Source: Gammaproteobacteria bacterium (GTDB taxonomy: Bacteria > Pseudomonadota > Gammaproteobacteria > Ga0077554 > Ga007554). Taken from it: DNA of 64,000 nt. The notes beneath the pieces were generated by a model. It was not told where the DNA came from, did not search any database, and was given only the letters and a program-made list of their open reading frames with translations. Where the stretch lies: positions 1,744,188 through 1,808,187 of the forward strand of contig JAMPIW010000007.1 in the NCBI GenBank assembly GCA_040183005.1, in the 5' to 3' direction. The translations under genes were made by a program, and so were the position numbers. Each line of letters opens with the position of its first letter. The first letter of the stretch is position 1. Below are positions 4,253-42,894 of the stretch, one piece after another.

Positions 4253-4585
4253 CTATTTTGCTGCCACAGTCACTGTAATGTGACTGGTACGCTTAAGAAT
4301 ACGATTGCCGCGACCCTTGGCACGTGCGTGCATGCGCTTTTGTGTCGGACCTTCATCCACGCAAATCTTACACACCTTAAGTTCGTCAACATCGGCACCG
4401 TCGTTGTGCTCTGCATTGGCAATCGCCGATTCTAGCACCTTTTTAAGTATTACGGCTGCTTTTTTTGGACTAAATGTCAGCAACTGCAAGGCGCGATCAA
4501 CTGGCAGACCACGGATCTGATCGGCAACCAGCCGGCCCTTTTGGGCCGAAAGGCGCGCATATTTCAACTTTGCAACAGTTTCCAT
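4253..4585 (-). CDS. rplV: 50S ribosomal protein L22
   Basis: L22 lines the nascent-peptide tunnel. The start [19 protein letters not shown] gives 110 residues, the usual length, and has a purine-rich site just upstream. A further in-frame GTG at 4600 would add MTGLG and overlap the rpsS stop, so that start is possible but less likely. The C-terminal [16 protein letters not shown] is typical of the family. Confidence 0.96.
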
Positions 4586-4596
4586 TCCTAACCCCG

Positions 4597-4869
4597 TCAC
4601 TTCGTCTTCCGGTCACCGGAATGACCTTTAAATGTACGCGTCGCCGCAAACTCACCCAGCTTATGCCCAACCATGTTCTCGGACACGAGCACTGGAATAT
4701 GTTGCTTGCCATTATGCACAGCGATAGTCATACCCACCATATTAGGAATCACCATCGAACGTCTCGACCATGTTTTGATCGGCCGTTTGCTGTTGGTGGC
4801 AATAGCTGCCTCCACCTTATGAATAAGGTGGGAGTCAATGAATGGACCCTTTTTAATTGAACGTGGCAC
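4597..4869 (-). CDS. rpsS: 30S ribosomal protein S19
   Basis: S19, 90 residues, in the head of the 30S subunit with S13. It starts [18 protein letters not shown] and has the conserved [20 protein letters not shown] segment. It lies between rplB and rplV. Confidence 0.98.
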
Positions 4870-4887
4870 GCTTCAATCCTCTTAACT

Positions 4888-5709
4888 TCACTTACGACGG
4901 CGTACAATCATGCCGACGGTACGCTTATTACTGCGCGTCTTATAACCCTTAGTCGGGGTACCCCAAGGCGAAACAGGATGACGACCACCCGAAGTTCTAC
5001 CTTCTCCACCACCATGCGGATGATCCACTGGATTCATAGCTACGCCGCGCACTGTGGGACGAACCCCGCGCCACCGCGAAGCACCCGCCTTGCCCAGAGA
5101 GCGCAGATTATGCTCACCATTGCTCACTTCGCCAATGGTAGCTTTGCAATCCACATGAATCTTGCGTATCTCACCCGAGCGCAAACGTAAAGTTGCATAA
5201 CCACTTTCACGCGCAACCAACTGAACCCCCGTCCCCGCGCTACGCGCAACTTGCGCGCCCTTGCCAGGCTTCAGCTCGATACAATGCACCGTGCTACCCA
5301 CCGGAATGCTGCGCAGAGGCAGACAGTTACCGATCTTAATGGGTGCATCGGCACCGGAAACCAGCGTCTCTCCTGCCTTGACACCTTTTGGGGCGATAAT
5401 GTAACGGCGCTCACCGTCCGCATACAGCATCAAGGCGATATTGGCGCTACGGTTGGGATCGTATTCAATACGCTCTACCTTCGCCGGTATGCCATCTTTA
5501 TTGCGCTTAAAATCAATGATGCGGTAATGCTGCTTATGACCGCCGCCCTGGTGGCGCACAGTAATACGCCCCTGGTTATTACGCCCGGCGCTTTTGGATT
5601 GTTTCTCCAATAACGGGGCGTAGGGGTCACCCTTGTACAAATCCGGGTTCACCATCTTTACAACAAAGCGGCGCCCCGCAGAGGTAGGCTTTTCTTTAAT
5701 TAATGCCAT
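4888..5709 (-). CDS. rplB: 50S ribosomal protein L2
   Basis: L2, 273 residues, is required for subunit association and supports the peptidyl transferase centre. The conserved C-terminal [20 protein letters not shown] loop, with the histidine that lies near the active site, is intact. It has the KOW-like and OB-fold parts at the usual positions. It follows rplW by 31 bases. Confidence 0.98.
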
Positions 5710-5740
5710 TACTAAGATCCTTTATACGCTGATCGCCCGT

Positions 5741-6037
5741 TTACTGCGGCCCCATGAAACTAATATCATGACCGGGTTTTAACGTGACATACGCCTTCTT
5801 CCAGTTGGAACGACGACCTTGCATGCGGCCAGCGCGCTTCACTTTACCTTTCACGTTACACACGCGAACTGCGGAAACCTGCACGCTGAACATTAACTCA
5901 ACAGCACCCTTAATTTCAGGCTTGGTAGCATCGCTCGCAACCTTGAACACGAACTGCCTGTTGCTTTCCGCCGTGCGCGTGCTTTTTTCCGAGACATGGG
6001 GCGCCAAAAGTAAGCCTATTAAACGCTCCTGATTCAT
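5741..6037 (-). CDS. rplW: 50S ribosomal protein L23
   Basis: L23, 98 residues, sits at the tunnel exit as a docking site for trigger factor and [23 protein letters not shown] and the [19 protein letters not shown] tail are typical. Its start overlaps the end of rplD by four bases, which suggests coupling. Confidence 0.98.
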
Positions 6038-6654
6038 CCCAGCGCCTCCTCAAATTGCCTAACAGCACCAACCGTCATTAAAATACTTCCAAAACCGACC
6101 AGACTTACTGGATCAACACTCTTGGCATCAACCACATCAACACGATAGACATTACGTGCTGCCAAATAAAGATTCTCGTCGGCGTTTTCCGTAACAATGA
6201 GCACGTCGCTCAAATCCATCCCCTTCAACTTGAGCAGTAATTCGCTGGTTTTAGGGGCGGAGACGGAGAAATTTTCGACTACAATGAGCCGGTTTTGCCT
6301 GATTAGTTCAGACAAAATGGCCTGTATCGCGCCGCGATACATCTTTTTGTTAACCTTTTGCGAATAATCAGCAGGCACAGCGGCAAAAACCTTACCACCT
6401 TTACGCCAAAGCGGGCTTCGTGTGGTACCGGCGCGGGCGCGGCCCGTACCTTTCTGGCGCCACGGCTTGGCTCCGCCGCCGCTGACCTGTGCGCGGGTTT
6501 TCTGTGCATGGGTACCAGCACGGGCGCCTGCAAGGTATGCAGTTACCACCTGATGCACCAGCGCTTCGCTATACGGGCGATTGAAAGTGGTATCAGATAC
6601 CTCTATCACCCCCGCAGGGACACCGGCTTTAAGACTTTGCAGTTGTAATTCCAT
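6034..6654 (-). CDS. rplD: 50S ribosomal protein L4
   Basis: L4, 206 residues from the start [11 protein letters not shown] at 6654. An open frame extends further upstream into rplC but does not fit the family start. The tunnel loop [19 protein letters not shown] is present. In Escherichia coli L4 represses the S10 operon; here rpsJ is joined to tuf, so that leader would have to lie elsewhere, and none was recognised. Confidence 0.97.
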
Positions 6655-6664
6655 AACCTTTCCT

Positions 6665-7309
6665 TCACGCACGCGCTTTAACGGCAGGACGAACGATAAC
6701 ATCGCCACCCTTGGCACCTGGCACAGCACCTTTCACTAACAACAAACCACGTTCGCTATCAACACGCACTACTTCAAGGTTCTGAACGCAGCAACGCTCA
6801 TTACCCATATGCCCGGCCATCTTCTTGCCCTTGAACACGCGGCCAGGTGTCTGACGCTGCCCAATAGAGCCAGGGGACCGATGGGAGAGCGAGTTACCGT
6901 GAGTAGCATCACCCATGGTGAAGTTATAACGGCGGATTGTACCAGTAAAACCTTTACCTATGCTGGTGCCGACCACATCAATTTTTTGTCCCGGCTGGAA
7001 TACATCAACTTTCAGCTCAGCACCGACATCAATGCCTTCACCTTCATTTCCATCAAGACGGAACTCCCAGAGACTGCGTCCGGCGCCGACACCGGCCTTG
7101 GCATAGTGACCCGCCATAGGCTTGGTGACACGGGACGCGCGGCGCGTGCCCACTGCTACCTGCAGACTACGGTAACCATCGGTCTCCAAGGTTTTCACCT
7201 GGGTCACGCGATTGGATTCAACTTCTATCACGGTGACAGGCACGGATACACCATCTTCGGTGAACACCCGGGTCATTCCGCACTTACGACCGATTAATCC
7301 GATTGCCAT
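6665..7309 (-). CDS. rplC: 50S ribosomal protein L3
   Basis: L3, 214 residues from [16 protein letters not shown] at 7309, binds near the peptidyl transferase centre and starts 50S assembly. The loop with the glutamine methylated in enterobacteria ([20 protein letters not shown]) is conserved. It is separated from rpsJ by about 75 bases. Confidence 0.97.
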
Positions 7310-7383
7310 CTTTAAAACCCTATTCTTAAAATAGCAGGCTCTCGCCAACTCTTCACGCGGAAGGTTGGCTAGAGAAGCGCTTT

Positions 7384-7695
7384 TTATGTCAACTTGATCT
7401 GTACATCCACGCCAGCGGCCAAGTCCAGCTTCATCAGAGCATCGACCGTCTTATCCGTTGGATCCACGATGTCCATCAAACGTTTGTGAGTACGAATCTC
7501 GTATTGGTCACGGGCATCCTTATCGACATGAGGAGAGATAAGGATGGTAAAACGCTCTATCTTGGTCGGCAGCGGAATCGGACCTTTTACCTGAGCGCCC
7601 GTGCGCTTAGCAGTCTCGGCTATTTCGCGCGCCGACTGATCAATCAGCCGATGGTCAAAAGCCTTCAAACGGATGCGTATTCTCTGATTAGCCAT
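7384..7695 (-). CDS. rpsJ: 30S ribosomal protein S10 / NusE
   Basis: S10, 103 residues, is both a 30S protein and NusE, the partner of NusB in transcription antitermination. It starts [19 protein letters not shown] and has the conserved [19 protein letters not shown]. It lies only four bases from the tuf stop, so the S10 section is probably transcribed from the str promoter. Confidence 0.98.
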
Positions 7696-7699
7696 TGAT

Positions 7700-8890
7700 T
7701 TACTCGATCACCTTAGTTACAACACCGGCGCCGACAGTACGGCCACCCTCACGAATCGCAAAACGCAATCCTTCGTCCATAGCAATCGGGGCAATCAGGC
7801 TCACCGTGACACGCACGTTGTCACCCGGCATCACCATCTCGATCCCCTCCGGCAGATCCACCGAACCGGTAACGTCGGTGGTGCGGAAGTAAAACTGCGG
7901 ACGGTAGCCATTGAAGAACGGGGTGTGACGTCCACCTTCGTCCTTGGACAAGACGTACACTTCGGCTTCGAACTTGGTGTGCGGCTTGATTGAACCCGGC
8001 TTGCACAGTACCTGTCCGCGCTCGACGTCTTCGCGCTTGGTGCCGCGCAACAGGACGCCGACGTTGTCACCGGCACGGCCTTCGTCCAGCAGCTTGCGGA
8101 ACATTTCCACGCCGGTGCAGGTGGTCTTGACGGTGGGCTTCAAGCCGACGATTTCCACTTCTTCGCCAACTTTGACAATGCCCTTTTCAACACGGCCCGT
8201 CACGACGGTGCCACGGCCAGAGATCGAGAACACGTCTTCGATCGGCAACAGGAAAGGCTTGTCAATCGGGCGTTCGGGCAAGGGAATGTACGAATCCATC
8301 GCTTCGAGCAGCTTGATCACCGCAGGTACGCCGATATCGCTCTGGTCGCCTTCGAGCGCCTTGAGGGCGGAACCAGTGATGATCGGGGTGTCGTCGCCGG
8401 GGAATTTGTATTTATCCAGCAGCTCGCGCACTTCCATTTCCACCAGCTCCAGGAGCTCGGGATCGTCCACCATGTCGGCCTTGTTCAGGAATACGACGAT
8501 GTAGGGCACGCCGACCTGGCGGGCCAGCAGGATGTGCTCGCGGGTCTGCGGCATGGGGCCGTCAGCAGCGGAGACGACGAGGATTGCGCCGTCCATCTGG
8601 GCTGCGCCGGTGATCATGTTCTTTACATAGTCGGCATGGCCGGGGCAGTCTACGTGCGCATAGTGACGAGCGTCGGATTCGTACTCGACGTGCGCGGTGG
8701 CTATGGTGATGCCGCGTGCGCGCTCTTCGGGCGCCGAGTCAATCTGGTCATAGGCTTTGAATTCACCGCCATGACGCTCCGCCATCACTTTCGTCAACGC
8801 TGCCGTCAACGTGGTCTTGCCATGATCTACGTGACCAATCGTGCCTACGTTAACATGCGGCTTGGTACGCTCAAACTTTCCCTTGGACAC
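7700..8890 (-). CDS. tuf: translation elongation factor Tu
   Basis: EF-Tu delivers aminoacyl-tRNA to the ribosome. The 396 residues carry G1 GHVDHGKT, G3 DCPGHADY and G4 NKAD in the GTPase domain, then the two beta-barrel domains ending [15 protein letters not shown]. It lies between fusA and rpsJ. The codon use is clean and conserved, as expected of a very highly expressed gene. Whether a second tuf copy exists cannot be seen here. Confidence 0.99.
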
Positions 8891-8922
8891 GGTTCATTAC
8901 CTCTCAAATTAATTACAATTTC

Positions 8923-11025
8923 TTAGGCCGATGCTTTCTTAATCACGGCTTCAGCGATACTCGCCGGGACTTCATTATACTTGGCAAACTCCATCGCATA
9001 GGTCGCCCGACCCTGCGTAGCGGAGCGCAAATCGGTAGCGTAACCAAACATCTCTGACAATGGGACTTCGGCATGCACGAGCTTACCGGATGGCGAATCA
9101 TCCATGCCCAGAACGATACCCCGGCGGCGATTCAAATCGCCCATGACATCACCCATATAATCTTCAGGGGTGACCACTTCAACTTTCATGATCGGCTCGA
9201 GCAACACGGGACTCGCCTTGCGGGCACCCTCTTTGAAACCCATTGAACCAGCGATCTTAAACGCCATTTCATTGGAATCCACGTCGTGATAAGAACCATC
9301 GAACAGGGTAACCTTGACATCGACAACGGGATACCCGCCGATGACGCCGTTCTTCATCTGTTCCTGAATACCCTTATCGACAGGGGCGATATATTCGCGC
9401 GGTACCGTACCACCAACGATCGCATTGACGAACTCATAGCCCGCACCCGGCTCACGCGGCTCAATGCGCAACCAGACGTGTCCGTACTGACCGCGCCCAC
9501 CGGACTGACGCACGAACTTGCCTTCCTGCTCAACGCTCTTGCGGATCGTTTCACGGTACGCAACCTGCGGCGCGCCAACATTGGCCTCAACCTTGAACTC
9601 GCGTTTCATGCGGTCCACGATGATTTCCAGATGGAGCTCACCCATCCCGGAAATGATAGTCTGACCAGTCTCTTCATCGGTATGAACACGGAAGGAGGGA
9701 TCTTCGCCGGCAAGCTTGGAAAGCGCAATGCCCATCTTTTCCTGATCGGCCTTGGTTTTTGGCTCCAGCGCCTGGGAAATCACCGGCTCAGGGAATATCA
9801 TCCGCTCCAGAATGATAACATTTTTCAGGTCGGACAGGGTATCGCCGGTGGTAACATCCTTCAGACCGACGGCGGCTGCGATATCGCCAGCATGCACTTC
9901 CTTGATCTCATCGCGGTGATTGGCGTGCATTTGCAGCAGACGGCCAATACGCTCTTTTCTGTCCTTGATAGGGTTGTACACCGTATCACCGGAACTCAAC
10001 ACACCCGAATATACGCGGAAAAAGGTCAGCGTTCCCACGAAGGGATCGGTAGCGATCTTGAACGCCAGCGCAGAGAACGGTTCGGAATCGGACGGATGGC
10101 GCTCCGTCTCGGAACCGGCAGCATCATCACGCAGCCCCTTGACTGCTTCTACGTCAGTAGGTGCAGGCAAGTATTCGATCACGGCATCCAACATCGCCTG
10201 GACACCCTTGTTTTTGAAGGCGGAACCGCACAATACGGGGACAACTTCATTCCTCAGGGTTCTGGCGCGCACGCCCTTCTTGATCTCTTCAATAGAAAGA
10301 TCGCCACCCTCAAGATACTTTTCCATCAATGTTTCATCAGCTTCGGCGGCGGCCTCAATAAGCTTCTCGCGCCACTCCTCACAGGATGCCAGCATCTCGG
10401 AGGGAATCTCACCTTCCTTGAAGCTCATGCCCATGTTGGCCTCATCCCAATGGATGGCCTTCATCTTGACGAGATCAACCACGCCTTCAAAGCGCTCTTC
10501 TGCTCCGATGGGAAGTTGCATGACTACGGGATTTGCGCCTAGGCGCTTCTTGATCTGCTCGACAACACGCAAAAAGTTGGCGCCGGCACGGTCCATCTTG
10601 TTGACAAAAGCAACACGCGGCACACGATATTTGTTGGCTTGACGCCATACGGTTTCAGACTGCGGCTCCACCCCGCCCACGGCGCAGAAAAGGGCGCAGG
10701 CGCCGTCCAGCACGCGCAGCGAACGCTCCACTTCGATAGTGAAGTCCACGTGACCGGGGGTATCAATGATGTTGATACGATGCGGCGGGAACTGACCAGC
10801 CATACCCTTCCAGTAACAGGTGGTGGCGGCGGAGGTGATGGTAATGCCACGCTCCTGCTCCTGCTCCATCCAGTCCATGGTGGCGGCACCGTCATGCACC
10901 TCACCAATCTTGTGAGAGACACCGGTGTAATACAGAACACGCTCGGTGGTCGTCGTTTTACCGGCATCAATGTGGGCCATGATGCCAATATTACGGTAAC
11001 ACTCAATAGGGGTTGTACGGGCCAC
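8923..11025 (-). CDS. fusA: translation elongation factor G
   Basis: EF-G drives ribosomal translocation and, with RRF, recycling. It has 700 residues, with G1 [10 protein letters not shown] near residue 17, G3 DTPGHVDF and G4 NKMDR, followed by domains II–V and the [20 protein letters not shown] segment. The length is normal and there is no sign of a paralogue-type change. It lies between rpsG and tuf in the str operon. Confidence 0.99.
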
Positions 11026-38122: not shown

Positions 38123-38235
38123 AACAAGCCAATGGGAATAAAAGGTCAGCGAATAGTCAAGGGTGGGCAATCCGATTTTGGGTTACACCACGCAGTGCGC
38201 CATCATCAACCACAGCGGTTTATCATTTGTCATCA

Positions 38236-39554
38236 GAAGTGTCCGGCAATTTCGCAAAGACGGCTATATAACATGATGATGTTGAATAGGAAAGTGTGTG
38301 TTTAGGGGTGTCACCGACTTGAACGTGAATTTTTTGGGAAACTGGGGCTTTCCCCCCAGGAGTTTCCGTCATGTATTCAGGCCAGTTGGTGTTCGCACAA
38401 CTCATGGAGCATTTGCCCCTTCACACATTCCGTCGCTGCGTGCAGCGCTACCCTTCCAAATATCCCACCAAGACTTTTTCGCATCTCGATCAATTTCTCT
38501 GCATGGCGTTCGCGCAGCTGACTTACCGCGAAAGCCTGCGCGACATCGAAACCTGTCTGCGCGCCCACCAAGCCAAGCTCTATCACTTGGGCATACGAGG
38601 CAACATCGCCAAGAGCACGCTGGCCGATGCCAACGAGCAACGCGACTGTCGCATCTACGCGGATTTCGCGATGAGCTTAATCCAGACCGCCAGAAAGCTT
38701 TACGCCAGCGACAGCTTTGCGGTCGAACTGGAACAGACGGTCTACGCACTCGATACCACGACCATCGACCTGTGCTTGAGCGTCTTTCCGTGGGCACGCT
38801 TCCGCTCCACCAAAGCTGCCGTCAAGATGCATACGCTGCTCGACCTGCGCGGCAACATTCCAACCTTCATCCACATCAGCGATGGCAAGATGCACGAGGT
38901 CAATGTGCTCGATATCCTGATACCCGAAGCCGGCAGCTTTTACATCATGGATCGTGGCTTCACCGACTTCGCTCGCTGGTTCACCCTGCATCAAGCACAG
39001 GCGTTCTTTGTCATCCGTGGCAAATCCAATCTGCTCTTTCGTCGCGTCTACTCTCGCACCGTGGACAAGTCCACTGGACTGCGCTGCGACCAGACCATTG
39101 CATTGACTGCTCGCAAGGCCAGCAAGGATTACCCGCAGCACCTGCGACGCATCAAGTTCTACGATGCCGAACACGACAGGTTTCTGGTCTTTCTGACCAA
39201 CAACTTCGACCTGCCTGCGCTGACCATCGCTCAGCTTTATCGTTGCCGCTGGCAGGTCGAGCTATTCTTCAAGTGGATCAAACAGCATCTTCGAATCAAG
39301 CGGTTCTATGGCACCACCGAGAATGCAGTCAAGACGCAAATATGGATCGCCATCGCGGTTTACGTCGTGGTCGCCATCGTGAAAAAGCGGCTCAATACCG
39401 AGGCTTCGCTTTACACAATCCTACAGATTTTGAGCCTGACTCTTTTCGAGAAAACGCCACTCGATCAATTACTTAAAAATGCGGAGACGCAAATGAGCAT
39501 GCAGAAAGACAATAACCAATTGAATCTATTCAATTAAATTACCGGACACTTCTG
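38236..39554 (+). mobile_element. IS4-family insertion sequence, intact
   Basis: 1,319 bases bounded by imperfect inverted ends: CAGAAGTGTCCGGCAATTT at the left, and at the right the inverse of CAGAAGTGTCCGGTAATT. The nine bases ATTTGTCAT occur directly outside both ends (38227–38235 and 39555–39563), the expected target duplication. One full transposase gene is inside. Confidence 0.93.
38371..39537 (+). CDS. IS4-family transposase (DDE)
   Basis: 388 residues with a CAGGAG site eight bases before the ATG. The N-terminal DUF4372-like part (TYRESLRDIETCLRAHQAKL) is followed by the DDE_Tnp_1 core: aspartates in YALDTTTIDLCL and FYIMDRGFTDFARW, and the YREK signature YRCRWQVELFFKWIKQHL. No frameshift is seen, so the element may be active. 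Confidence 0.95.
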   Translation: MYSGQLVFAQLMEHLPLHTFRRCVQRYPSKYPTKTFSHLDQFLCMAFAQLTYRESLRDIETCLRAHQAKLYHLGIRGNIAKSTLADANEQRDCRIYADFAMSLIQTARKLYASDSFAVELEQTVYALDTTTIDLCLSVFPWARFRSTKAAVKMHTLLDLRGNIPTFIHISDGKMHEVNVLDILIPEAGSFYIMDRGFTDFARWFTLHQAQAFFVIRGKSNLLFRRVYSRTVDKSTGLRCDQTIALTARKASKDYPQHLRRIKFYDAEHDRFLVFLTNNFDLPALTIAQLYRCRWQVELFFKWIKQHLRIKRFYGTTENAVKTQIWIAIAVYVVVAIVKKRLNTEASLYTILQILSLTLFEKTPLDQLLKNAETQMSMQKDNNQLNLFN

Positions 39555-39556
39555 AT

Positions 39557-39880
39557 TTGTCATGTTCATTCGTCTCCGCGCCTGTCCGCGTGGGCACAGA
39601 AGGCGCGCCCACCCTACCGGGCTGGCGTGCCACACCCATTTCGTGCGCACAGCGCACACTACGCTTGCTACCACCCATCATGCGTCACGTTCATTCGTCC
39701 GCGTTTGCTCATCAGTGTGTAGGTTGGGTTAGCCCGCAGGGCGTAACCCAACAGATCCGCGAAGAAACGTCGGGTTACGCTACGCTAACCCGACCTGCTG
39801 GACTACCACCCATCATGCGTCACGTTCATTCGTCCACGTTGGCAAGCAAAAAAGCTGTTTGCCCACCCTGCGGGACTTGC
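39557..39880. repeat. cluster of dispersed intergenic repeats (copies A and B)
   Basis: This gap holds no gene. It contains two copies (from 39669 and from 39804) of a unit beginning TACCACCCATCATGCGTCAC, then TTCATTCGTCC. It also has a GTAGGTTGGGTTAGCCCGCA palindrome (39719–39800) and a GTGGGCACA…GCCCACCCTAC palindrome at the left. The second unit ends in TTTGCCCACCCTGCGGGACT. Confidence 0.8.
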
Positions 39881-40276
39881 TCACAAAAGGCGCGCTGATT
39901 GACCTTGCGCCGTGAGAAGCGCAACCGCCTTTTTGTCGAAGGAAACGAAGGTTTCCCCGCCGAGCCAGCTCCCCTCGTAGGCAATGACGCCATCGGCGAA
40001 ATCCCCGCCCGCTTCGAGCACCGACAGGCCAGCCTCCACGGCCGGTCTGTTCACTTCCACGTTGGCGACGGCAAGTAGTGCGCGGATCGCGGTGGCCGCG
40101 TCGGAGGGTTGGAATTCGTAGACCCGGAGCAGCACCCACACAAATTCGCACAGGCACGGCAGCGCGACCGCAATTAATCCAGCATCGGTCAAGACCTTGG
40201 CGGCGACGCTCGCTTGCGCTGGGTCGTCACGCACGACAGCACGAATAAGGACGTTGGTATCAACAGTGATCTTCAT
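39881..40276 (-). CDS. vapC: PIN-domain toxin (VapC type)
   Basis: 131 residues with the PIN nuclease pattern. Asp6 is in ITVDTNVLIRA, a glutamate in LCEFVWVL, a further aspartate in GGDFADGVIAYEG and one in FVSFDKKAVALL, together able to hold Mg2+. VapC toxins cut tRNA or rRNA. Its start overlaps the antitoxin stop by four bases. Confidence 0.92.
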   Translation of the reverse strand: MKITVDTNVLIRAVVRDDPAQASVAAKVLTDAGLIAVALPCLCEFVWVLLRVYEFQPSDAATAIRALLAVANVEVNRPAVEAGLSVLEAGGDFADGVIAYEGSWLGGETFVSFDKKAVALLTAQGQSARLL

Positions 40277-40524
40277 TCTTTACCAGCCCAACCTTGCGCG
40301 GTCGCCTCGTTGATTTCTTCAAGGGTGGCGACTTTTTTTGTCCGGCCCGCGAGCAGTCCGACGAAGCCATCAATCGTTCCAGTAGGCCGGAATGCTTTAA
40401 GTATACCCCTGCCATCTGGCAGCAAATCCAGCTCGATCTTTTCGCCCGGCTTGATGCCGAGGTGTTGCAGCACGTCTTTTCTAAACGTCACTTGTCCCCG
40501 TGCGGTAACAGTCAATGTGGTCAT
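40273..40524 (-). CDS. vapB: AbrB/MazE-type antitoxin (VapB type)
   Basis: 83 residues from MTTLTVTARGQVTFRKDVL at 40524; the open frame extends 16 codons upstream but the swapped-hairpin DNA-binding domain starts here. The C-terminal part (GLLAGRTKKVATLEEINEAT) would wrap the PIN toxin. It presumably represses its own operon. Confidence 0.9.
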   Translation of the reverse strand: MTTLTVTARGQVTFRKDVLQHLGIKPGEKIELDLLPDGRGILKAFRPTGTIDGFVGLLAGRTKKVATLEEINEATAQGWAGKE

Positions 40525-40665
40525 GGTGATGTCCTTGTAATCTATTGATCGATACTTTACAAAGTAATGCAAAATCGCCTTACTGTCAACGTCTGTTGTC
40601 AGTCAGTAGGGTGGACACGTTTTTTGTGCCCACGCGGTAAAAGCACAGAGAGCCAGGACACACTC

Positions 40666-40744
40666 TACCACCCATCATGCGTCACGTTCATTCGTCTGCG
40701 GGCAGGCAAACAAAAAACCGTTTGCCCACCCTATAGGACTTGCT
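40666..40744 (+). repeat. dispersed intergenic repeat, copy C
   Basis: A third copy of the unit seen at 39804–39881, in the same orientation: TACCACCCATCATGCGTCAC at the left, then AAAAACCGTTTGCCCACCCT and GGACTTGCT. With copy B it brackets the vapBC genes as direct repeats about 860 bases apart. Confidence 0.8.
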
Positions 40745-40766: not shown

Positions 40767-41813
40767 TTACTGGGCAATGATTCGGCTGCAGAGTAGTTCA
40801 ACTTCACTTGGCTTAAAGTATTCGCGTCCGGTCATGAAAATGCTCACATGTTCACGAAGTCGTTGCACGTGTTCGGGAAACCTCGCCTCAAGGACTGTCT
40901 TTTGGTTTAGGCACGGCACGAATATAAATGCGCGCTCTTGATTTTGGTGCTCAGAAACGAAAGTAGCCATCTCAGATTTCACGCCTGGGCAGACATACAC
41001 TTTCATCTTCTCCTCGAGATTGTGGTTCACATCGGGATACTTCTTGCGCAACCGTTTAATGAAGCGCGAGATCCCAAGAAGATCGCGGTTTACATCAATA
41101 CTTCTTGTTTGACCGACGCCTGGATCTTGAGTGGCTGATATATTACGCCCCCTATCGATGTCAACAATGTAATGAGCTTCAGTGAAATTAGGATTCTGAT
41201 ATCGGTCGAAATGAAGCTTGAGCCATTCCGAGTCTATTGCTTCCATCGTCCAAGATGGGTTGAGGGAGAAGAATTTACCCTCAAATTTTCCCCAGTGATC
41301 CCGTGCATCGGCCATTGTGAGCACGTTGAATCCACGTCCGCTTGCGCTTTGAGGCGCGAGCGAGGGGATAATATTCGCACCCTTGCTCTCGAATCTCTTG
41401 CGAATCTTATCCACAACAGCACTTGTCAATGGTTCTTGGGTTTCTAGATATAACCACCCGTCAAGATCGGTTGGAAATTTTGGCAATTCTCCGTTAGGTT
41501 CTGTGACGCTTACAATTGCCGTCCTCGCCTTTCCAAAATGACTAAGAAAGAAACCCAGCTCCATTGTGACGTTATCGCGAGGCGTCCAATAAGTATCGGA
41601 GCCGGTGCGAATTTCGTCGTCGCACGAGAGCATTGCGATGCCATACTGACATGATTCAATTGAGTCAATAATATTATCTAGAAGAACGCCACCACTCCAG
41701 TCTGCGTCCTGCCAATGTACCACCTCATAGTCATGCTGAAGGCTCTCCTGTAGTGCCTGAGCAATCTTCTGCTTCTTTGAGCAGTAGGCCAGGAATACGC
41801 GACGTTTCGTCAT
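40767..41813 (-). CDS. TIR-like nucleotide-binding protein with unknown C-terminal domain
   Basis: 348 residues with a strong AGGAGG site. Residues 4–145 fit the PF10137/COG4271 TIR-like fold: RVFLAYCSKKQKIAQAL, a WSGGVLLDNIIDSI helix, and PRDNVTMELGFFLSHFGKAR. Glu85 in the last piece is in the place of the catalytic glutamate of NADase TIR domains. Residues about 160–348 match nothing I recognise and could be the sensor; no membrane helix is seen. It lies 25 bases after the KamA-like gene in one operon. Base composition looks AT-richer than the flanks. A defence role is inference. Confidence 0.82.
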   Translation of the reverse strand: MTKRRVFLAYCSKKQKIAQALQESLQHDYEVVHWQDADWSGGVLLDNIIDSIESCQYGIAMLSCDDEIRTGSDTYWTPRDNVTMELGFFLSHFGKARTAIVSVTEPNGELPKFPTDLDGWLYLETQEPLTSAVVDKIRKRFESKGANIIPSLAPQSASGRGFNVLTMADARDHWGKFEGKFFSLNPSWTMEAIDSEWLKLHFDRYQNPNFTEAHYIVDIDRGRNISATQDPGVGQTRSIDVNRDLLGISRFIKRLRKKYPDVNHNLEEKMKVYVCPGVKSEMATFVSEHQNQERAFIFVPCLNQKTVLEARFPEHVQRLREHVSIFMTGREYFKPSEVELLCSRIIAQ

Positions 41814-41838
41814 TGGATCCTCCTGTAATGGTCGTTAA

Positions 41839-42894
41839 TTAAACTAAATCCATCACCTCTGAAACTGGGTGCCAGAATGTTCGGCCCGTTCGTTCCGTGT
41901 CGCAGGCCTGCAGGTATTTCAGCAGGACTCGCGACCCTTCTAATGCGAGCACTTGAATTTTCCCGGTTGGGTGCGTGATGCAGTATCTGGCGGTCTTTGA
42001 CAAACCAGAGCCCACGTGGCTTTCCCGCTCAAAAATTGAAAACGCCTCATCTAGAGGAAGCATGAAGTGTTCATTACCGTCGGTTGGTCGACAGTGAAAG
42101 ACATAATATTGAGGGCACCCAATGAACTCCATCTGTTCGAAGAGGTTGCCGAGGACCCCATTATCGGTATTGACGCCTCGCAATAGCGGACATTGATTGA
42201 GGCAGGCCAAGCCCGTTCGCGCCAATAGTTTGACTGACTGCTTTGCCTCCCTAGTGACCTCGCGAGGATGATCAAAGTGGGCCATGAGGTATAACTGCTT
42301 GCCACGCTCCGAAATTGCCTCCAATCCTTGGATGAGGGTGCTATCTCGCAAGATTCTGGCTGGGTCAAACGCAGGTGTCTTGCTTCCAATGCGAATCACC
42401 CTAACACTGGCAATATCGGCAATGCGATTCAGCAAATTAATGAGCTGAGACGTCTTCATCGCAAGAGCATCACCTCCCGAGAGTATGACATTTGTGATCT
42501 CGGGATGCTCAGCAATGTAAAGAAGAGCGGGGGAGAATTCGTGCGGAACCTCCTGACTGCTTGGCTGAAAAAGACGCTTTCGAAAGCAAAATCTGCAGTA
42601 AGCAGCGCAGTTCGTGGTGCAAAGCAAAAGGCCAGTGTCAGGAAATTTGTGTTGGAGACCCGGCGCAACCGTTGATTGAGCCTCTTTGGTGGGGTCAAGG
42701 CTCTCCACCGGTCGCAGCTCGCGAATATCCGGTATGACTAGTTTTCGAATTGGATCGTTTGGGTCGTCAAAGTCAATCAGGTCTAAGTATTGCGTAGGCA
42801 CACGAAACCGGTAAGCGCTTTCTGTCTCGCTTAGATCACTGGCATCCAAAAGCGCTGTGGGAATCTGCTGGACACGTGTCAGGACTCGCCGCAT
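41839..42894 (-). CDS. KamA-family radical SAM protein (aminomutase-like)
   Basis: 351 residues. The radical SAM cluster motif CAAYCRFC is at Cys96, Cys100 and Cys103, and LSGGDAL (138–144) is the SAM-binding GGD. The N-terminal FRVPTQYLDLI and the LNQCPLLRGVN piece match the lysine 2,3-aminomutase/EpmB superfamily. The usual PLP-binding PGGGGK loop is reduced to PTGK, keeping Lys312. No epmA or efp gene is nearby, so a role in EF-P modification is unlikely. Substrate unknown. First gene of the operon with the TIR-like protein; GGAGATCG precedes the ATG. Confidence 0.85.
   Translation of the reverse strand: MRRVLTRVQQIPTALLDASDLSETESAYRFRVPTQYLDLIDFDDPNDPIRKLVIPDIRELRPVESLDPTKEAQSTVAPGLQHKFPDTGLLLCTTNCAAYCRFCFRKRLFQPSSQEVPHEFSPALLYIAEHPEITNVILSGGDALAMKTSQLINLLNRIADIASVRVIRIGSKTPAFDPARILRDSTLIQGLEAISERGKQLYLMAHFDHPREVTREAKQSVKLLARTGLACLNQCPLLRGVNTDNGVLGNLFEQMEFIGCPQYYVFHCRPTDGNEHFMLPLDEAFSIFERESHVGSGLSKTARYCITHPTGKIQVLALEGSRVLLKYLQACDTERTGRTFWHPVSEVMDLV

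Follow-up and report, generated by a model that had tools for sequence, protein, structure and literature searches.

What would a KamA-family radical SAM enzyme be doing directly beside a TIR effector, and do the two genes work together? An earlier note on this DNA had described the two as a same-strand operon within an accessory island. It pointed out that TIR-like domains of this family act as effectors in several known defence systems, and proposed as one possibility that the enzyme makes or changes a small molecule or protein mark sensed by the second domain of the TIR protein. We examined the gene pair, its surroundings and the relatives of both proteins. Positions refer to the window, the 64,000-nucleotide stretch of gammaproteobacterial DNA that was analysed, and the features discussed below are collected in Table 1.

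Table 1. Features of the gene pair and of the mobile sequences next to it (positions within the window).
Feature	Position	Strand	Remark
KamA-family radical SAM/PLP aminomutase-like gene, 351 aa	41839..42894	minus	first of pair
TIR effector gene, 348 aa	40767..41813	minus	second of pair
CAP12/Pycsar-type TIR domain (PF10137)	41439..41801	minus	residues 5-125 of TIR protein
C-terminal domain of TIR protein, presumed sensor	40767..41366	minus	residues about 150-348
Intergenic gap, 25 bases, with AGGAGG ribosome-binding site for TIR gene	41814..41838	minus	
High-copy IS, DUF4372 and DDE transposase (38371-39537)	38232-39556		21-base inverted ends
Dispersed repeats 'GTAGGGTGGRCAC / GTTTGCCCACCC'	39557-39881 and 40606-40744		flank VapBC pair on both sides

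A compact gene pair of unusual composition

The anatomy that had been described for the pair was borne out in every respect. Both open reading frames are present on the minus strand, separated by the 25 bases claimed, and both encoded proteins belong to the families named. The two ribosome-binding sites were also found: AGGAGG stands 5 bases ahead of the ATG of the TIR gene, and GGAG stands 7 bases ahead of that of the KamA gene. The pair is AT-richer than its surroundings, with a GC content of 47.6% in the TIR gene and 51.3% in the KamA gene as compared with 55.7% for the whole window. Third-position GC is likewise lower (0.50 and 0.54, respectively, versus about 0.65-0.78 in flanking core genes). 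Codon statistics favoured the annotated frame throughout both genes, though in the C-terminal half of the TIR gene it scored only slightly above one of the reverse frames. Searches around the pair for a sigma-70 promoter or a terminator gave nothing above shuffle expectation. The KamA and TIR genes are probably co-transcribed.

A TIR effector with a Cap12-type NAD site and an unrecognised second domain

The TIR domain matched PF10137 with an E-value of 1.9e-20 (73.5 bits against a curated cut-off of 24.7), and the PADLOC TIR effector models agreed on this assignment. The nearest solved relatives of the protein are Cap12 (7un8) and PycTIR. In SfSTING, the NAD pocket is formed by R78, N80, E84, and D110 (PMC9402430), which align to R79, N81, E85, and D116 of the TIR protein, all four being kept. 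The same alignment places Cys11 opposite SfSTING Ser10 and Ile48 opposite Leu47. Given this family membership and the kept NAD-site residues, the TIR protein is likely an NAD-cleaving effector, and its attribution to a family of defence effectors stands.

The remainder of the protein was far harder to place. Its C-terminal half had no relative in Pfam, the PDB, plasmids, phages, or viral contigs. About 1,230 genome scans, covering its own class and phylum, a Planctomycete group, and an Acidobacterial group, likewise gave none (some genomes overlap between scans). PHROGs returned a weak match alone for the TIR protein (E 0.014). The Cap12 profile NF050171 covers residues 5-144 only, and what follows is so diverged that a remote fold match to STING would be possible; a single-sequence structure model of the TIR protein reached a pLDDT of 35.5 and was not used. 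Two weak plasmid matches to the C-terminal domain were treated as chance, as the matching reading frame resembles a regulator in R. tropici and an ABC-transporter permease in Paenibacillus cellulosilyticus.

Among known systems, the closest likeness is to Cap12, the TIR-STING protein of CBASS, which shares the PF10137 TIR, its N-terminal position ahead of a second domain, a similar total length, and the NAD-site residues. However, the TIR protein scored 49.9 bits against the Cap12 cut-off of 450, and no STING domain was recognised; in Cap12 the second domain serves as the binding site of a nucleotide ligand (PMC9402430). CBASS entails a CD-NTase nearby or elsewhere in the genome, and none appeared among the ten neighbours under PADLOC or in a genome scan for the SMODS nucleotide cyclase (PF18144), other CD-NTase types being possible. 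PycTIR of Pycsar has a TIR of the same family, but at the C-terminal end (residues 157-268 of the solved chain) rather than the N-terminal end as here. PADLOC identified no Pycsar component in the ten neighbouring proteins, and a uridylate/cytidylate cyclase was absent from both the PADLOC and the Pfam scans of the neighbours. Thoeris with a macro-domain ThsA also relies on a TIR enzyme that uses NAD, but there is no ThsA-like partner here and the TIR belongs to the Cap12/PycTIR family. Thoeris TIR base exchange does offer a precedent for a signal that incorporates an amino acid, histidine adenine dinucleotide (PMC11204291), but a beta-amino acid is no heterocyclic base.

Two further observations concern PF10137 itself. 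The same genome encodes a second PF10137 protein of 289 aa (G000:C9:37157-37513, L132), with its TIR at the C-terminal end and no KamA gene in the stretch fetched. Another genome (G206) holds about ten PF10137 fragments at ten places (L141, L146, L149-L156), spanning profile positions 71-118 and interrupted by in-frame stops in most cases, which resemble a family of dispersed repeats or pseudogenes.

A foreign, highly diverged KamA protein with its active site kept

The KamA protein matched the family model TIGR00238 with an E-value of 9.5e-58, its 195.7 bits falling narrowly below the cut-off of 199.2. It lies far below the curated cut-off for each of the named equivalogs, including glutamate 2,3-aminomutase (TIGR04368; 197 versus 650 bits) and EpmB (177.5 versus 369.3 bits). 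Lysine 2,3-aminomutase was its sole sequence match in the PDB (E 5e-50) and, as entry 2a5h, the top PDB fold match (E 1e-25) of a structure model with a pLDDT of 85.8. With lysine and glutamate 2,3-aminomutases it shares the fold, the CxxxCxxC radical SAM cysteines (C96/C100/C103), and the PLP lysine (K312), and it looks like a catalytically intact enzyme of the 2,3-aminomutase type. It differs from lysine 2,3-aminomutase in having Arg269 at the column of Asp293, a residue that we take to bind the amine of the lysine side chain. Arginine occupies this column in 82 of 82 homologues, and glutamate 2,3-aminomutase presumably has a basic residue at the same position. Together these residues suggest that the KamA protein acts on an acidic (anionic) substrate. 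EpmB, the member of the KamA family in the EF-P pathway (EF-P beta-lysylation), is encoded separately in this genome, where it adjoins EF-P; we therefore rejected a housekeeping EpmB role for the KamA protein.

The best 80 KamA relatives in the genome collection were 42-49% identical and came mainly from Planctomycetota, Acidobacteriota, and Paenibacillus. In a tree, the protein was nested within this subfamily with modest support (88/82), a long-branch placement that is uncertain. Its branch length of 3.1, as compared with a median of 0.22, makes it the most diverged member by far. It departs from the family at 16 of 102 near-invariant columns, the next highest count being 8 of 106, while every catalytic residue is kept and most of the departures are conservative (Y/F, W/F, T/S, D/E). 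Divergence of this kind suggests a changed role. Of 274 genomes of its class, just one apart from this one held a KamA relative passing an E-value of 1e-50, at 33% identity. Judged by these comparisons, the KamA gene is foreign to the genome.

What adjoins the relatives gives some indication of where such enzymes normally work. An OpuAC glycine-betaine-type transporter lies near them in several Acidobacteriota, and a class I/II aminotransferase in several Planctomycetota. In Paenibacillus, the neighbours include an argininosuccinate lyase gene, and in Paenibacillus alvei a glutamine synthetase gene that overlaps the KamA gene by one base. On Rhizobium plasmids, the nearby genes are annotated as biotin-carboxylase (ATP-grasp) family. 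These neighbours point to amino-acid and compatible-solute metabolism as the setting to which KamA relatives belong.

KamA-type proteins also occur on mobile elements. Viral contigs held a single relative, at 31% identity. Several large phage records of 200-735 kb, namely LR756500, LR756501, and Pseudomonas PpuM phages (H125-H139), encode KamA/EpmB-type proteins that are 30-33% identical to the one in the window. On the conjugative Klebsiella oxytoca plasmid pKOR-5873 (L122), a KamA-family gene forms a four-gene run with three hypothetical proteins (4389-9765).

A variable spot outside any defence island

Downstream of the pair lie VapBC (39881-40572), the dispersed repeats, and the high-copy insertion sequence; upstream lie genes for a GNAT protein and a tail-collar protein. 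The DUF4372/DDE insertion sequence is present as about 20 nearly identical copies genome-wide, and the dispersed repeats of Table 1 also occur in genus mates and family mates. In one genus-mate (G001), the VapBC pair (85% DNA identity) and a GNAT remnant are kept, and kelch and LuxR genes lie between them. That other genes stand between the same flanks indicates that the spot is variable and that the pair occupies it as a block. PADLOC identified no defence protein among the ten neighbours, and the PADLOC and Pfam scans together ruled out a defence island around the pair. The accessory island of toxin-antitoxin and mobile sequences that had been described thus reduces to one VapBC, one high-copy insertion sequence, and the dispersed repeats.

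The pair was found in one genome

The earlier note had proposed counting how often the homologues are adjacent and how often they lie in defence islands, and had set two outcomes against its own reading: a pair confined to one genome and homologues at metabolic loci. None of the 80 related KamA loci had a TIR neighbour. Conversely, no KamA gene was present in the stretches fetched around PF10137 loci of 49 KamA-bearing genomes. PF10137 exceeded its cut-off in 12 of 369 genomes of the class, and among the loci fetched from this sample only the window's own had KamA beside it. No TIR partner was seen in the opened regions around phage and plasmid relatives of KamA. Within the collections searched, which held no close homologue, both outcomes were observed: the pair occurs in this genome alone among those examined, and KamA relatives adjoin mainly amino-acid and osmolyte genes. 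The open-licence papers searched on radical SAM enzymes or aminomutases with TIR defence did not report the pair.

How the pair might work

We tentatively favour the reading that the pair is a horizontally acquired accessory unit, in which an NAD-depleting TIR effector is accompanied by a KamA enzyme that feeds into its control by providing or adjusting a small-molecule input. The acquired unit and its effector have good support, whereas the link to KamA is an inference. A trigger would act on the C-terminal domain of the TIR protein, upon which the TIR domains would assemble and hydrolyse NAD+. This would stop the cell, most plausibly at phage infection. The KamA enzyme would have been recruited from amino-acid metabolism, possibly that of a beta-glutamate-type osmolyte, as a working radical SAM/PLP enzyme of the 2,3-aminomutase type, and its product or activity would bear on the TIR protein. 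Such a working link is plausible because of the 25-base spacing, the foreign look that both genes share, and the unusual divergence of the KamA protein.

The pairing might instead be fortuitous: a TIR effector that stands alone and a metabolic KamA unrelated to it would have gathered by accident at one variable spot and on one strand, a reading that we regard as possible though somewhat doubtful. It would fit the failure to find a second pair at the 80 KamA loci or the PF10137 loci examined, the metabolic genes adjoining KamA relatives, the different contents of the VapBC-GNAT spot in the genus-mate, and the dispersed repeats close by. The tight 25-base spacing, the strong ribosome-binding site within it, and the foreign look of both genes argue against accident, as does a KamA protein so far removed from its metabolic relatives with its catalytic residues kept.

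A specific form of the joint-unit reading casts KamA as ligand maker and the TIR protein as receptor. The C-terminal domain would bind a beta-amino acid made by KamA, which would either hold the TIR off until its loss in infection releases it, or switch it on. The order of TIR and second domain resembles that of Cap12, whose second domain binds nucleotides (PMC9402430), the adjoining KamA has a probable anionic substrate, and no SMODS-type cyclase was found in the genome. Nevertheless, no ligand-binding fold can be recognised in the C-terminal domain and the open-licence literature searched offers no precedent, and we consider this version unlikely. Less likely still is the full, as yet unrecorded defence-type module, in which the beta-amino acid from an anionic-substrate KamA would gate a Cap12-like TIR NADase by way of a sensor domain of a new kind.

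Decay after acquisition, leaving a non-functional pair whose long KamA branch reflects relaxed selection, would account for the 16 departures from near-invariant columns. It is improbable given that both frames are open at full length, that the cluster, PLP, and NAD-site residues are all kept, that most departures are conservative, and that in both genes the codon statistics point to the true frame throughout. Least probable of all is an EpmB-like KamA whose amino-acid product would then be joined to EF-P or to the TIR protein, altering translation or TIR activity, for although KamA and EpmB form one family, EpmB already lies beside EF-P, Arg stands where lysine-type enzymes have Asp, and a scan of the pair's immediate surroundings showed no EpmA-like ligase.

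With respect to the functional proposal of the earlier note, the TIR family, the NAD-site residues, an intact, foreign, and diverged KamA, and a variable spot all stood, whereas the defence island, recurrence of the pair, and relatives outside metabolism did not. Even apart from any link between the two proteins, the TIR protein carries an unrecognised domain in place of the STING of Cap12, and the KamA protein strikingly illustrates how a metabolic enzyme can diverge fast while its active site is kept. To our knowledge, the bacterial TIR defences considered here respond either to nucleotide ligands or signals or to direct contact with a protein. If the defence-type module were real, it would represent immune control by a non-nucleotide metabolite from a radical enzyme. 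A TIR effector governed by an amino-acid metabolite of a neighbouring radical SAM enzyme would then be a new class of immune input, with a new receptor domain.
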